A stretch of DNA of 64,000 nucleotides from NCBI RefSeq assembly GCF_002215215.1, contig NZ_CP018632.1:6072501-6136500 (forward strand), in the 5' to 3' direction. Positions 8,687 to 46,269 of the stretch are shown here, in pieces. The DNA is from Granulosicoccus antarcticus IMCC3135 (GTDB lineage Bacteria; Pseudomonadota; Gammaproteobacteria; Granulosicoccales; Granulosicoccaceae). Under the pieces are notes generated by a model. It worked only from the letters and a program-made list of their open reading frames with translations, made no database searches and was not told where the DNA came from. The position numbers were made by a program, and so were the translations under genes. Each line of letters begins with the position of its first letter. Position 1 is the stretch's first letter.

Positions 8687-10237
8687 TTATTTGTATTTTT
8701 TGATTTCACCTGATTTTACGCGAGCTACAAATGAAGCTAACTCATCTTTAACAATCGGCATCAAGAAGTACAAACCAATAATATTGAAGATAGACATTGC
8801 AAATATTGCCGCGTCAGAGAAGTCGATTACCGCACCGAACTGGATAGTTGCGCCAACGACTACGAAGATACAGAAAATTATTTTAAATATCATCTCTGTT
8901 GCTTTGCCTTCACCAAAAAGGTAAGTCCAGGCTTTAAGACCGTAGTAAGACCATGAAATCATCGTTGAGAATGCAAACATGATTACTGCTACAGCAAGGA
9001 AGTATTTGAAAACACCAATTGAATCTGAGAATGAAGCAGCTGTTAATTGAACACCTGTCAAGTCAGCGCCATCAAATGGAGCTACGTTCAAACCTGCAAT
9101 AGTAATTACCAATGCAGTCATCGTACAAATAACCACTGTATCGATGAATGGCTCAAGTGTTGCAACCAAGCCTTCTGTAATTGGCTCTTTTGTTTTAACT
9201 GCTGAGTGAGCAATTGCCGCAGAACCGACACCCGCCTCATTAGAGAACGTTGCACGTTTCAGACCCTGAATCATTGCACCGATAACACCACCTACAACAC
9301 CTGCTCCTGTAAATGCACCGTCGAATATTGCACCGAAAGCAGCTCCGATTTGACCCGCATTCAGCGCAATAACAATGATACCCATACCAAGGTATAGAGC
9401 AGCCATGTAAGGAACAATCTTCTCAGTTACTGATGCAATTGAAGGCATACCACCGACAATTACCGAGAACACTAATGCTGCAATAACCACACCTGTGATG
9501 ACTCCGAACTCAGCAGGAACACCAAATGCATAAGTTAACATCGCATGAGCCTGGTTAGCTTGGAACATGTTACCGCCACCAAGTGAGCCCAAGATACACA
9601 TTAATGCAAAACCAATGGCAAGGAACTTCCCTAAGCCACCAAAGCCTCTTTCTGCCATTGCATCACGCAGGTAATACATTGGACCACCAGAAATAGCTCC
9701 TGAAGGAAGAACTGTTCTATATTTAACACCCAAAGTACACTCAAAGAATTTTGAAGCCATACCTAACAGGCCACACAAAATCATCCAGAAAGTTGCACCT
9801 GGTCCACCGATAGCTACCGCAACGCCAACACCTGCGATATTACCCAAACCAACTGTACCTGATAACGCCGTTGTTAAAGCCTGGAAATGAGAAACCTCAC
9901 CATCTTCTTTCGCGTCTGGATCAGAATATTTACCACTAACAATACCTAAAGCCAAACCAGAACGTCTGAATTGAACAAATCCGAAGTAGATCGTAAAAAT
10001 TATTGCTGCAATAAACAACCAACCGACGATTAAAGGAAATGCAGTATCACCGACAGGGACACTATAGAAAATAAGATTAACAAACCAACCTAAATAATCC
10101 TTGAAAAAGGTATCTACCCCAACACTTATACTTGTAAGCAATGAACTGAAAGCACCTGGATCTCCTTCAGCAGCATATGCACTCATTGTAAAAAAAGTTA
10201 AAAATATCCCTATGGGATATCTATTCGGTTTTTTCAT
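8687..10237 (-). CDS. Alanine/glycine:cation symporter family (AGCS) protein
   Basis: A 516-residue sodium:alanine/glycine symporter. Family signatures include TALSGTVGLGNIAGVGVAVA, GGPGATFWM, GPMYYL, and NEAGVGSAAIAHSA followed by KTKEPITEGLVA. About eleven transmembrane segments are visible. An N-terminal hydrophobic stretch ending in SAYAAEG looks like a signal peptide, as in several marine AGCS proteins. Role is Na+-driven uptake of alanine, glycine or related amino acids at the inner membrane. Codon use is AT-rich, unlike the chromosome on either side. An AAGG ribosome binding site lies upstream of the ATG. A degraded fragment of a second AGCS gene lies about 530 nt upstream on the opposite strand. 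Confidence 0.95.
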   Translation of the reverse strand: MKKPNRYPIGIFLTFFTMSAYAAEGDPGAFSSLLTSISVGVDTFFKDYLGWFVNLIFYSVPVGDTAFPLIVGWLFIAAIIFTIYFGFVQFRRSGLALGIVSGKYSDPDAKEDGEVSHFQALTTALSGTVGLGNIAGVGVAVAIGGPGATFWMILCGLLGMASKFFECTLGVKYRTVLPSGAISGGPMYYLRDAMAERGFGGLGKFLAIGFALMCILGSLGGGNMFQANQAHAMLTYAFGVPAEFGVITGVVIAALVFSVIVGGMPSIASVTEKIVPYMAALYLGMGIIVIALNAGQIGAAFGAIFDGAFTGAGVVGGVIGAMIQGLKRATFSNEAGVGSAAIAHSAVKTKEPITEGLVATLEPFIDTVVICTMTALVITIAGLNVAPFDGADLTGVQLTAASFSDSIGVFKYFLAVAVIMFAFSTMISWSYYGLKAWTYLFGEGKATEMIFKIIFCIFVVVGATIQFGAVIDFSDAAIFAMSIFNIIGLYFLMPIVKDELASFVARVKSGEIKKYK

Positions 10238-10763: not shown

Positions 10764-10935
10764 ATCTTCGACGGCGCCTTTACGGGTCTGGGAGTCGCTG
10801 GTGGTTTCGTTGCTGCTCTGATTCAAGGCTTCAGGTGAGCCGCTTTCCCCAATGAAGCGGGTGTCGGGTTATGCAACGATTGCTCACTCAGCGGTAAAAA
10901 CCAAAGAGCCAATCACAGAGGGCTTTGCCTCTCTG
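10764..10935 (+). pseudogene. Degenerate internal fragment of a second AGCS symporter gene
   Basis: Reading from 10764 gives IFDGAFTGLGVAGGFVAAL, IQGFR, a stop, then AAFPNEAGVG. After a one-base insertion, the next frame gives ATIAHSAVKTKEPITEG and FASL. This is collinear with IFDGAFTGAGVVGG through ITEGLVATL in the intact symporter at 8687-10237. The damage is one in-frame TGA, one frameshift (an extra G after GTGTCG) and loss of everything before and after. Orientation is opposite to the intact gene. It was a paralogue, not a recent copy: wording differs at many codons and the GC content is higher. Confidence 0.85.
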
Positions 10936-16220: not shown

Positions 16221-16295
16221 TGGACTATTCATGTGCTTCGCCACTCTGATATCGCCACCCTACTCCCTCATGGCACCGAAACACGACACAACAAT

Positions 16296-16892
16296 ATGAA
16301 CCTGAAGACCAAGAAGTACTGGCTGTTCGACATGGACGGAACTCTGACTCAAGCCATGCATGATTTTGATGCCATGCGCAGTACCCTCGGACTGCCAGCC
16401 GGCATGCCGATCCTGGAAGCTCTGGCAGCCATGGATCCCGAACAAGCCAAGGTGAAACATGCCGCTCTGGATGCCATGGAGCTGGACATGGCCGCAGATG
16501 CAATACCTCAACCAGGTAGCCACGAATTGCTTTCTCTATTACAAAGTCAAGGGGCTACACTTGGCATAGTAACTCGCAATGGCAAGCAGATAGCCAATGT
16601 AACATTGGCGGCTTGCGGTCTGGATGAGTTTTTCTCCGATGCGGACATCATCAGTCGTGACTGCTGCGTTGCCAAACCGGATCCAGCCGGTGTTCAACTA
16701 CTGCTGTCTCGCTGGACAGCTGATCCTGCCGATGCTGTCATGGTAGGCGACTACCTGTTCGATTTGCAGGCCGGTCATTCTGCAGGAATTGACACTGTTC
16801 ATATGGATGTAGACAGCCGCTTCGAATGGCCTCAGTACACCAGCGTTTCCGTGAATTCCTTGCAGGCGTTGACTGCTTATATAAGCCCTTAG
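16296..16892 (+). CDS. HAD-superfamily hydrolase (phosphoglycolate-phosphatase-like)
   Basis: 198 residues from ATG 16296; an upstream in-frame extension to 16233 lacks family similarity. HAD motifs are complete: FDMDGTL (nucleophile Asp and acid/base Asp), IVTRNG (motif II), AKPDP (Lys) and MVGDYLFD (motif IV). The helical cap between motifs I and II is of the C1 type. A magnesium-dependent phosphatase on a small phosphorylated metabolite is likely; the substrate is unknown. Its TAG stop codon overlaps the first bases of a palindromic repeat that occurs a second time at 26780-26800. Confidence 0.88.
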   Translation: MNLKTKKYWLFDMDGTLTQAMHDFDAMRSTLGLPAGMPILEALAAMDPEQAKVKHAALDAMELDMAADAIPQPGSHELLSLLQSQGATLGIVTRNGKQIANVTLAACGLDEFFSDADIISRDCCVAKPDPAGVQLLLSRWTADPADAVMVGDYLFDLQAGHSAGIDTVHMDVDSRFEWPQYTSVSVNSLQALTAYISP

Positions 16893-16911
16893 GGATCGTG
16901 AAACAATCCCT
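16891..16911. repeat. 21-bp palindromic repeat, copy 1
   Basis: An imperfect palindrome with arms AGGGATCGT and ACAATCCCT around a 3-nt centre. Its exact reverse complement occurs at 26780-26800. On the minus strand it folds into nine consecutive pairs including one G-U. The TAG stop of the HAD gene overlaps its first two bases, and the convergent GntR gene ends 36 nt further on. No U-tract follows. Confidence 0.8.
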
Positions 16912-16946
16912 TAGGACTAGCGAGAAACCACCATCTCAATTGAAAC

Positions 16947-24985: not shown

Positions 24986-25828
24986 ATGGATATTGGCCTG
25001 ACACAAGAACTTGTCGTTCTCGAACGCAACCGCAACTCACTGCTGCTGGACGATGGCGCTGGAGGTGTGGTCCCTCTCCCGACCAATGAAGCTGAATTGG
25101 CAGAACCGGGAGAGCTCCTGCGCGTGTTCATTTTCGTCGATGCTCAGGGAAAACCGCTGGCCACCACGAAACAACCACTGGTCGAACGCAATCAATGCGC
25201 CTCTTTGAAGGTGGTGGACATCACCAATGCCGGTGCATTCCTGGACTGGGGTCTGGCCAAGAATCTGCTGCTGCCCTTTGCCGAACAGCGCAGACCTCTG
25301 GAAGTCGGACGCCATGAAAGCGTGCTGGTCTATCTGGACAAGAGCGGACGCCTGGCTGCCAGCAGCCGTCTGGATCATCATATGCCTGAGACCGGTGAAG
25401 ATTTTCAACCTTGGCAGAGCGTTTCTCTCCTGATCTTTCAACGCACCGATCTGGGCTTGAAAGCCGTGATCGACAACCGCGTCCTGGGGCTGCTCTACAA
25501 AGATGAGATCTTTCAGGACGTACGTGTGGGTGACACACATCAAGGCTATATCAAGCGCGTGCGACCCGATGGACGTATTGATCTGACATTGCAGCCACAA
25601 AAAAAGATGCTCCAGCCCAATCTGGCCGATGCGATCATCGAGAATCTGCAAGCTAACAATGGCGTGTGCTTTCTCAGCGACAAAAGCTCACCAGAAGCCA
25701 TCCAATCAGTATTCCAGGTCAGCAAGAAGAATTTCAAGCAGACTTTGAGCACGCTATACAGGGAACGACGCATCACCATCCATCCGGACCGAATAGAGCT
25801 CGTTGAACCTGACACGGGCAATCACTGA
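24986..25828 (+). CDS. CvfB/YitL-family S1-domain RNA-binding protein
   Basis: 280 residues. Three S1-like OB domains, with VVDITNAGAFLDWGLAKNLLLPFAEQ and GLLYKDEIFQDVRVGDTHQGYIKRVRPDGRIDLTLQP clearly visible, are followed by a C-terminal winged-helix part (FQVSKKNFKQTLSTLYRERRITI). This is the CvfB architecture. Staphylococcal CvfB affects virulence gene expression through RNA binding; in proteobacteria the role is unknown. It overlaps by one base with the following GTPase gene (TGATG), so the two are translationally coupled, and both are linked to RNA or the ribosome. Confidence 0.9.
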   Translation: MDIGLTQELVVLERNRNSLLLDDGAGGVVPLPTNEAELAEPGELLRVFIFVDAQGKPLATTKQPLVERNQCASLKVVDITNAGAFLDWGLAKNLLLPFAEQRRPLEVGRHESVLVYLDKSGRLAASSRLDHHMPETGEDFQPWQSVSLLIFQRTDLGLKAVIDNRVLGLLYKDEIFQDVRVGDTHQGYIKRVRPDGRIDLTLQPQKKMLQPNLADAIIENLQANNGVCFLSDKSSPEAIQSVFQVSKKNFKQTLSTLYRERRITIHPDRIELVEPDTGNH

Positions 25829-26781
25829 TGGCTATTCAGTGGTTTCCCGGGCATATGCACAAAGCCCGCAAGGAAATGGCCAAGGTATTGCCCGAAGTCG
25901 ATGTAATCATCGAGGTTCTGGATGCCCGCATTCCCTGGAGCAGCGAGAACCCGATGCTGGCCAACATTGCCGGCGACAAGCCCTTGTTACGGGTTCTGAC
26001 AAAAGCCGATCTTGCCGACCCTGTCCGGACTGAGCAATGGCTGGTCGAATTACGTCGCCACGAGCGGCACGATGCCATTGCAATCACTGCCGGTGACCCG
26101 GCGATCACCAAGGCCATACCGCAACGCCTCAAAGCACTGGTCCCACCTCCGACCTCACCTCGCCTCAAGCCCTATGTCGCCATGGTGATGGGCATTCCCA
26201 ATGTTGGCAAATCCACATTGATCAACAAACTGGCAGGTCGGGTTGTGGCTAAAACCGGCAATGAGCCTGCCATCACCAAACGACAGCAGCTGATCACTCT
26301 CAGCGAACACTGGCGCCTGCGCGACACCCCGGGCATGCTGTGGCCCAAGGTTGAGAACGAAGCCAGCGGCTACCGGCTGGCTGCTACGGGAGCGGTGCGA
26401 GATACCGCCATGGACAGCTCAGAAGTAGCGGCCTACCTGCTGGATCACCTCTGTGTTCACTACGCAGAAGCATTACGGGCCCGTTACGGCAAGACGCTAC
26501 CGTTGGATGAGAGCGTGCAGACGCTAGAGGCCATTGGCAAGATGCGCGGCTGCCTTGGTGGCGGTGGATTGATCGATTTTGATCGAGCCGGACGTCTGCT
26601 GTTGTCCGAATTTCGTGCCGGCCTACTGGGTGGAATGACGCTTGAGACTCCGGCCATGCGCCAGAAAGAGGAGGCAGAAACCGCCAAACGGCTCGCTGAA
26701 ATCGCCGCACGACGCGAACAGCGTCGCGAAAAGAAATCCGAAGAGCGCAGTGCCAGAAAAGCACGCAAGAAAAACAGTTAG
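25828..26781 (+). CDS. Ribosome biogenesis GTPase YlqF/RbgA family
   Basis: 317 residues, circularly permuted GTPase. The order is G4 (TKADLAD, ~50), G5-like, G1/P-loop (GIPNVGKSTLINKLAG, ~135), a switch with conserved threonine, and G3 (DTPGMLWPK). The N-terminal IQWFPGHMHKARKEM is the signature of the family. It matures the large ribosomal subunit in Bacillus; many Gammaproteobacteria lack or vary it. The C-terminal tail is strongly basic (REQRREKKSEERSARKARKK), probably rRNA-contacting. Its TAG stop codon is formed partly by a palindromic repeat. Confidence 0.93.
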   Translation: MAIQWFPGHMHKARKEMAKVLPEVDVIIEVLDARIPWSSENPMLANIAGDKPLLRVLTKADLADPVRTEQWLVELRRHERHDAIAITAGDPAITKAIPQRLKALVPPPTSPRLKPYVAMVMGIPNVGKSTLINKLAGRVVAKTGNEPAITKRQQLITLSEHWRLRDTPGMLWPKVENEASGYRLAATGAVRDTAMDSSEVAAYLLDHLCVHYAEALRARYGKTLPLDESVQTLEAIGKMRGCLGGGGLIDFDRAGRLLLSEFRAGLLGGMTLETPAMRQKEEAETAKRLAEIAARREQRREKKSEERSARKARKKNS

Positions 26782-26800
26782 GGATTGTTTCACGATCCCT
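26780..26800. repeat. 21-bp palindromic repeat, copy 2
   Basis: Exact reverse complement of 16891-16911: arms AGGGATTGT and ACGATCCCT with a TTC centre, nine base pairs including a G-U in the + strand RNA. Its first two bases complete the TAG stop of the YlqF-like gene, as copy 1 does for the HAD gene. It may act as a transcript end without a U-tract, or be a dispersed REP-like element. Confidence 0.8.
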
Positions 26801-26987
26801 TAAGCGAGTAAGCAGTGGCGATCGTTCACAACTGAACAGTCGCCGACTCGGTGTCCAGGAGCCTAAAACCTTGACCACTCCACAGAACAGGCCTGCAATC
26901 GCTCCGAATATGCCGCCATCGCGAGTCACTGCTCGATAAAATAACCCCAACGCCGCTAATTTCTCTACCTGCCTCGGCTTCATTAGG

Positions 26988-44627: not shown

Positions 44628-44720
44628 TGCACCAGTGCAAAACGGGTAGACGTATTGTATTAGTGCAAACCCGTAGCTTGCCTTCGACTGGATCTTCGGA
44701 TGAAACAATAAATTGTTTCA
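44628..44720. promoter_or_regulatory. Inverted and direct repeats in the amidase-ABC operon gap
   Basis: Between the amidase stop and the binding-protein start (265 nt, no gene) lie three motifs. The first is a TGCAC-CA-GTGCA palindrome at 44628-44639. The second is a direct repeat of AGTGCAAA (44634 and 44662). The third is a palindrome with 9-bp arms TGAAACAAT / ATTGTTTCA at 44701-44720, just 6 nt past the amidase stop. The first two look like operator half-sites for an unknown regulator; the last could be a 3' hairpin of the amidase message. No regulator gene adjoins. Confidence 0.4.
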
Positions 44721-44726
44721 CCACCA

Positions 44727-46091
44727 TTAACGGCTTTTCAACAATCTCTCGACGGCTCGACCGGTAGCCAGTAAACGCGCATCATGATTCAGTGGCATGG
44801 TCATCTGCAAGCCGGTGGGCAGACTACCAACAGCGCTCGTATCATGCATGGGCAGTGTCAGTCCACACATATCCAGTAGATTGCCTGGCTGTGTATTACG
44901 AGAGGCGAGCAACGCCCGTTCGTGGATGGCAGGATTAGCCAGGTCGGCCAGTGGCATCGGCACGATCGGACAGGTAGGTGAAAGCCAGAGGTCAACATCA
45001 TTGAAAGTCGCATTGGCCATTTCTATTAATGCTCGCCGCCGATGCTGCGCCTTGACGTAGACATGCGCTGGAGTCTCCAGACCGACCGAAGCTCTTGCCT
45101 CCGTCACTGGGTCCACGCCATCGCGAATCGCCATAAACCGCTCAGGTGTCAGTGTTTTTATCAGCTCAGCTGGCACGATGGCACTGAACAATGAGGTGCG
45201 TTCATGCACTTCGGGAAATGACAGCGGTACTCGGGTAGCTCCGTAACGCTCCAGAAGCTGGCAGGCCCGTTCGAAATCCTCCGCAACCTGTGGATCGAGA
45301 TCGTCCATGAAAAGATCATCGATAATTCCCAACCGCAGTCCGCTGACATCCGCTCGATCAGCCACTGGCTCGCCCGTCATGAAAGTATGCATCAATGCCG
45401 CATCATCAACGGTTCGGCATAACGGACCGGCCGAGTCCAGCGTCGAGGAGAGCGAGAAAATACCGTCCAGCGGCCAGATCCCTACCGAGCTCTTGTAACC
45501 CACGATTCCTGTCAGACAGGCTGGCGCCCGAATGGAGCCGCCGGTGTCCGACCCCAAAGCCATGCCAACCATACCGCTGGCGGTAGCGACAGCCGAACCA
45601 CTGGATGAGCCACCCGGAATACGATGAACTTCTCTATCGACCGGGTTCCAGGGTGTGCCGCGCGAGGTGTTCACACCTGTTGCACCCAGGGCGAACTCGA
45701 CCGTCCGCGTTTTTCCCAGGGGAATCAGTCCTGCCATGCGCAAACGCCTGACCAGCCTGCCTTCACCACCGGTCAGTTCAGCCGTATCGGCGTTCGAGCC
45801 ATTGGTCGTCGGCAACCCTTCGACAGCCATGATGTCCTTGACGCCCATGGGCAATCCCATCATGGGACCCAGATCAGTACCCTGTGCCAAGAGTGCATCC
45901 AGTGCGGCAGCCGTGCCAAGCGCACGCTGCGCATCCATGCATTCAAAGGCGTCCAGCGACTGATTGTCATCAACACGTTGCAGACAATTTTGCACGCTTT
46001 GTACAAAACTCAGCGAACCGTCGCGCACCCGTTCGGCCCAGGGCTGAATACCATCGGCAAAAAGATCATCGGTTGTCTGCGTATCAGTCAT
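44727..46091 (-). CDS. Amidase (amidase-signature family)
   Basis: 454 residues from the ATG at 46091 (MTDTQTTDDLF), with an AGGA upstream; a longer frame to 46160 lacks family similarity. The Ser-cisSer-Lys triad is visible: Lys in GVKDIMAVEGLPTTNGS, cis-Ser in GGSSSGSAVATASG and nucleophilic Ser in GSDTGGSIRAPACLTGIVGYK. Hydrolyses a carboxamide; the specific substrate is unknown (GatA-like, allophanate- or aryl-amide-type). It is upstream of the peptide-type ABC operon on the same strand, which suggests shared substrate use. Confidence 0.9.
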   Translation of the reverse strand: MTDTQTTDDLFADGIQPWAERVRDGSLSFVQSVQNCLQRVDDNQSLDAFECMDAQRALGTAAALDALLAQGTDLGPMMGLPMGVKDIMAVEGLPTTNGSNADTAELTGGEGRLVRRLRMAGLIPLGKTRTVEFALGATGVNTSRGTPWNPVDREVHRIPGGSSSGSAVATASGMVGMALGSDTGGSIRAPACLTGIVGYKSSVGIWPLDGIFSLSSTLDSAGPLCRTVDDAALMHTFMTGEPVADRADVSGLRLGIIDDLFMDDLDPQVAEDFERACQLLERYGATRVPLSFPEVHERTSLFSAIVPAELIKTLTPERFMAIRDGVDPVTEARASVGLETPAHVYVKAQHRRRALIEMANATFNDVDLWLSPTCPIVPMPLADLANPAIHERALLASRNTQPGNLLDMCGLTLPMHDTSAVGSLPTGLQMTMPLNHDARLLATGRAVERLLKSR

Positions 46092-46269
46092 GTAACGATC
46101 CTGCCGTTGGCCGGAAAAATGAAGAGACTTGAATGATAGCGCCCTGTCGCGCTCGCCCACAAGCTGCGCCGAAAGACAAGACGGACCGGAACTTGTCGTT
46201 GAATCAGCTGCCTCACACTTTTACTAAAGTCGGCCTACACTAATCAGTGTAGTCGACGCCCGATTACCG

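Follow-up and report, generated by a model that had tools for sequence, protein, structure and literature searches.

The palindrome and its setting

The window, that is, the whole 64-kb stretch of DNA analysed here, covers positions 6072501-6136500 of a single 7783862-base contig. Within it, as the sequence-only reading had reported, the 21-mer AGGGATCGTGAAACAATCCCT occupies 16891-16911, and 26780-26800 holds the exact reverse complement. Each copy completes the TAG stop codon of an open reading frame (ORF) as "T plus AG", a further point of that reading which holds at both sites (Table 1). The first ORF encodes a HAD-like hydrolase. The second encodes a ribosome-binding GTPase, presumably RbgA/YlqF-like from its QWFPGHM motif, with its best matches in Granulosicoccus. 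Shuffling the window 100 times with its dinucleotide content preserved gives no matches to the 21-mer at three or fewer mismatches (mean 0.00). This result and the genome-wide copy counts, with zero control matches, lead to rejection of a chance origin.

Table 1. Features of the two palindrome copies in the window
Feature	Position	Strand	Remarks
HAD-like hydrolase ORF, stop carries copy 1	16233-16892	+	PF13419, 3.3e-20
Left TTA target duplication, copy 1	16889-16891		With G16892 gives TAG stop 16890-16892
19-bp element core, copy 1	16892-16910	-	GGGATTGTTTCACGATCCC on - strand
Right TTA target duplication, copy 1	16911-16913		Inferred pre-insertion CCCTTAGGAC: TAG, same place
Ribosome-binding GTPase ORF, stop carries copy 2	25828-26781	+	PF01926, 9.6e-16
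Left TTA target duplication, copy 2	26778-26780		With G26781 gives TAG 26779-26781; original stop TAA (inferred)
19-bp element core, copy 2	26781-26799	+	
Right TTA target duplication, copy 2	26800-26802		

Another palindrome to which the earlier reading drew attention does exist at 44701-44720, but it is not a copy of the element, as it lacks the GGG/CCC ends and the TWA flanks. It reads TGAAACAAT-AA-ATTGTTTCA and lies shortly past the stop of the minus-strand ORF 44727-46160; it has the inner motif of the family described below, without the ends or the duplication. The stretch that holds it shows no conservation in genomes G044 and G045. The window also contains a 59-bp inverted repeat (9168-9226 and 10867-10925, 85% complementary), the first arm of which lies inside ORF 8687-10237 and within a lower-G+C stretch.

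A family of short, intermediate and long elements

Copies of the palindrome are not confined to the window. The genome contains 13 exact copies of the 21-mer and 18 at one mismatch or fewer (five with one substitution), and none with exactly two mismatches; a backward control pattern gives no matches in either the exact or the mismatch searches. The core of the palindrome is 19 bp (GGGATTGTTTCACGATCCC), and an 18-bp copy at 2067498-2067515, which is the 19-mer minus one base, brings the short class to 19.

The genome also holds at least 27 long elements of 156-171 bp (eleven of 156, twelve of 157 and four of 171 bp), and inverted terminal repeats of the GGGNT(C/T)GTGAAA type are common to the 27 catalogued copies. 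At least 15 intermediate elements, 22-38 bp long, end in the same manner as the short and long elements. On the outside the elements are bounded by GGG...CCC, from which a few intermediates depart by single changes. Among the catalogued elements, a direct repeat of TTA or TAA flanks the element perfectly in 27/27 long, 15/19 short and 8/15 intermediate cases; were the 18-bp copy placed among the intermediates instead of the short class, the last two counts would be 14/18 and 9/16. The catalogue was built from 100 of 160 ends and may miss decayed elements, and its counts exclude partnerless or doubtful ends and a bare half-end near 3.807 Mb.

The 3-bp TTA/TAA duplication and the long relatives with inverted ends place the element with the miniature elements (MITEs) of DDE transposons. 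The 21-bp palindrome is therefore very probably a minimal MITE-derived element and not a REP. We infer that a DDE transposase, IS5/PIF-Harbinger-like, moves the family.

Several peculiarities of individual family members may be recorded here. The 171-bp elements (846242, 987533, 6332030 and 6826606) have 14 additional bp, a GGGGACGCCCAGTC-like block close to one arm; it sits in otherwise differing backgrounds, as if exchanged between copies. Solo family ends at 7164684, 1038756 and 2634872 have no visible partner end and are apparently truncated elements. At locus L239 (~1115-1147), a decayed family-like short element (GGGCTCGTGAAAAATTATTTCACACCCC) adjoins the end of another insertion sequence; it is one that the catalogue misses.

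Target sites and stop codons

In both the short and long classes, the base preceding the duplication is mostly C and the base following it mostly G, so the target can be written C|TWA|G. The inferred empty sites in the window are CCC-TTA-GGA at 16889, with a TAG stop, and CAG-TTA-AGC at 26778, with a TAA stop. Duplication of TTA in front of an element that starts with GGG yields T-TAG at both window sites, while a TAA target is merely duplicated. Because the element starts with GGG, insertion into TAA or T-TAG regenerates the stop. The "T plus AG" arrangement is thus the signature of an insertion rule that preserves stops, and the palindrome is often found exactly at stop codons because this rule leaves a working stop.

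The gene-end bias proposed in the earlier reading is borne out by the genome-wide copies. Eight of 18 short copies lie at stops, as against 2.5 expected (simulated P 0.001), and the nearest gene boundary is a 3' end for 17 of all 19. Intermediates are also found at stops more often than expected (4/13 vs 1.2, P 0.024); long elements are close to expectation (5/27 vs 3.7, P 0.30). Expectations were drawn from non-coding TWA sites with matched flanks, and in this test the 18-bp copy, itself not located at a stop, was counted with the intermediates. Gene context comes from an in-house ORF caller. Gene calls cover the catalogued elements except three intermediates, and none of the elements so covered falls within a called gene. 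The other possibility raised from the sequence, a selected 3'-end signal, is not needed, since insertion at TAA or T-TAG keeps the stop unaided.

Origin of the 19-bp form

How a MITE family comes to include a 19-bp form is a separate question. There is about an even chance that each short copy is a long MITE collapsed in place by slippage, and this reading is slightly favoured over a spread of the 19-mer itself. The MITE (a short non-autonomous DNA transposon) inserts at C|TWA|G, with duplication of TTA or TAA. Its long parent form, of 156-171 bp with two near-complementary arms, occupies non-coding sites, stop codons among them, because TWA plus the leading GGG recreates TAA or TAG. Parents with a TA-type end GGG-ATTGT-GAAA carry ATTGT as a direct repeat on either side of the hairpin. 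Slippage during replication across that hairpin could then join the ATTGT repeats to give GGG-ATTGT-TTCACGATCCC, the 19-mer, with the target duplication retained. Slippage of DNA polymerases between direct repeats at a hairpin has been described (PMC4134008).

Some long elements contain the repeats that such a collapse would use. GGGAT ends occur in 16 of the 27 long elements, and four of these 16 have GGGATTGT as their TA-type end. In these four, one arm has ATTGT as its positions 4-8, a second ATTGT lies 12-16 bases in from the opposite end, and deletion between the repeats gives exactly GGGATTGTTTCACGATCCC. The ATTGT pair is a joint-longest arm-to-arm repeat in their outer 60 bases. The intermediates also resemble deletion derivatives, each distinct and single-copy (for example, those of 26 bp and 37 bp). 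Counter-evidence comes from the uniformity of the short class, since all copies of 19-mer size have one junction. Equally long 5-bp repeats predict products of 30, 38 and 39 bp, none of which is in the catalogue, and an 8-bp repeat would give a 34-bp product in 6/12 GGGATCGT elements that is likewise absent from it. The required T is now present in only 4/16 GGGAT-type long elements, and C occupies that position in 0/19 short copies. Comparison between genomes turned up no locus at which one carries a long element and another the 19-mer; the relatives, at ~75% DNA identity, are too far removed.

A less probable but serious possibility is that a single ATTGT deletion produced the 19-mer and that the family's transposase, or some other route, then moved it to at least 18 new CTWAG-like sites, with a TTA or TAA duplication made at each. 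The single shared junction, the near-identity of the copies (13 exact, five with one substitution, one with a 1-base deletion) and the 19-mer's own TWA duplication in 15 of 19 cases would follow from such a spread. So would the single-copy state of the other deletion products and the lack of equal or better predicted slippage products, including the 34-bp product of the 8-bp repeat. However, on 19 bp the two end-sites would overlap nearly fully, and on general knowledge a normal DDE synapse could hardly use them; the fork orientation bias of the short copies, described below, is also opposite to that of the long elements. If the 19-mer is mobile, it consists of two overlapping transposon ends and is among the smallest elements of DNA-transposon type, nearly invisible to the host because insertion in a stop codon regenerates the stop. 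Self-mobility would bring the lower size limit of DNA transposons very far down and would pose the question of how a transposase uses overlapping ends.

Replication-fork orientation, position and age

For orientation relative to the fork, the origin was taken as the contig start, where the ORF reads by eye as dnaA, and the terminus was placed by GC skew near 3.9 Mb, a position known to ~3.9-4.2 Mb. The comparison omitted all 15 intermediates, as well as a long element in which both ends are of the TA type. Short copies are TG-end-last in 15/19 cases and long elements in 5/26 (Fisher 9e-5); compared with the 157/171-bp class (4/16), p is 0.002. Without the 18-bp copy the short count is 14/18, with p 1.7e-4 against all long elements and 0.005 against the 157/171-bp class, and without elements near the terminus the contrast has p 0.001. 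Scoring by interior arm sequence leaves 10/16 of the 157/171-bp elements unscored and gives p 0.13 against them and 0.002 against all long elements.

The bias counts for in-place collapse because the TG-end-last orientation suits slippage, although this argument is post hoc and not an independent prediction: as reasoned after the bias had been seen, lagging-strand synthesis would copy the deep repeat first and free the outer one. Within the 156-bp class the bias runs 9:1 in the direction opposite to the short copies (one unscored), and GGGGT is never found at both ends of a short copy; given the 156-bp bias, the contrast may not come from collapse at all. Neither gene orientation nor target-duplication orientation is supported as an explanation of the fork bias. 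If the short copies are collapse products, the opposite fork orientations would document, across the genome and in a natural setting, strand-biased slippage at hairpins. Taken by themselves, the long elements lie 21/26 one way relative to the fork (p 0.0025), a bias that suggests a coupling of insertion to replication.

Target duplications are perfect in 15/19 short copies as against 27/27 long ones (p 0.024), and by this damage the short copies look older. Short copies also lie closer to the origin (median distance 0.92 vs 2.37 Mb, p 0.009); neither class alone is clearly non-uniform in position (KS 0.11 for short, 0.09 for long).

Terminator and REP interpretations

It is improbable that the palindrome has been selected as a transcription terminator or as a hairpin at mRNA 3' ends. 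Such a role would fit its enrichment at stops and its fold in one strand, a 9-bp stem with a 3-nt loop (-5.6 kcal/mol, z -4.6, DNA parameters; the other strand folds at -3.9 kcal/mol). It would leave the direct TWA flanks and the long relatives unexplained, however; the T run that should follow the G+C-rich hairpin of an intrinsic terminator is absent at the two window copies, and relative to the nearest gene 11 copies point the same way and eight the opposite way. As the sole cause, a terminator or regulatory site is disfavoured.

The least probable reading, a REP/REPIN element moved by a RAYT, accords with a short palindrome, a gene-end bias and the 12 Y1_Tnp matches in the genome, but is rejected because the palindrome lacks the GTAG or CGTC end tag and has a 3-bp target duplication and inverted-end parents, and because no 19-mer was found at 10 of the 12 Y1/RAYT-type loci, searched over ~1.5 kb on each side. 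The suggestion of a mobile REP-like element at gene ends thus survives in its mobile-element origin and its gene-end bias, and fails as to REP. About 0.7 kb from the tandem pair L317/L318, two of these ten Y1 loci, lies one end of a long family member.

Relation to known elements

Bacterial MITEs such as RUP and Correia/NEMIS resemble this family in being short and intergenic, with inverted ends and a target duplication. Those described in PMC2229807 are of 107-168 bp. The present family differs in that its commonest short form is 19 bp and no parent insertion sequence (IS) was found. The TWA duplication and the C|TNA|G-like target recall the IS5/PIF-Harbinger (PHIS) group. According to PMC4482050, PIF/Harbinger elements have a TWA duplication, the related NuwaII has a C|TNA|G target and bacterial IS5 elements fall in the same tree, those compared there having ANT. 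Assignment of the family to this group is by target only, with no transposase linked to these ends.

REPs and REPINs are likewise palindromes, of 20-40 bp, often near gene ends; as described in PMC3733652, REPs carry GTAG or CGTC tags, and GTAG ones are often near RAYT genes. The present family differs in lacking these tags, in showing no RAYT link and in its target duplication. Compared with cyanobacterial small dispersed repeats, it differs in its 3-bp duplication and its identifiable long parent; such repeats, of 21-27 nt, were reportedly argued to be mobile by Elhai et al. in 2008. A MITE family can leave 19-bp protein-silent marks at gene ends that are mistakable for terminators or REPs. 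The family was not found in the literature searched, which is weak evidence, as most subscription journals lie outside its coverage.

Other genomes and the search for an autonomous partner

Among 48 genomes of the taxonomic family, the palindrome occurs at zero or one mismatch only in this one. Genome G010 has one match to a degenerate pattern, without the core or TWA flanks, and the congener G045 holds three long relatives but nothing that matches the short patterns. A gapped short-element pattern gives 29 matches here and 0-3 in each of 26 other congeners (control 0-2). The orthologous sites could be aligned in three relatives for copy 2 and in two for copy 1; none holds the element, and all are too diverged for an empty-site call. 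Viral contigs gave no matches to two patterns, and blastn with the long element found none in plasmids and phages.

A pattern for the ends of the family matched 1/369 genomes of a class sample, namely this genome, and 5/48 family genomes. These five are this one, G045 through its three long elements, and G027, G036 and G041, where a single end apiece is close to what the control gives. No autonomous element was recognised by the pattern among these 48, and none with family ends was found at 30 of the 43 DDE_Tnp_1 (PF01609) loci of this genome. IS5-like genes are present in it, none seen with family ends. A 19-mer lies ~1.2 kb from PF01609 locus L242, not as an end of the IS, and the decayed element at L239 abuts an IS (a PF01609 locus), again not as its end.

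Some resemblance is shown by an IS of this genome at loci L230-L233, L235 and L236, which we take to be IS427-like. Its copies are near-identical, with ~864 bp between GGG and CCC and two short ORFs. Like the family, it starts GGG...GT, ends ...CCC and has an A+T-rich inner part; it shares a CTAR-type target and has a DDE_Tnp_1 ORF. Unlike the family, it has a 2-bp TA duplication in 6/6 copies, and its ends are GGGC(C/A)TGTCATCAATTAA rather than GGGATCGTGAAACAAT.
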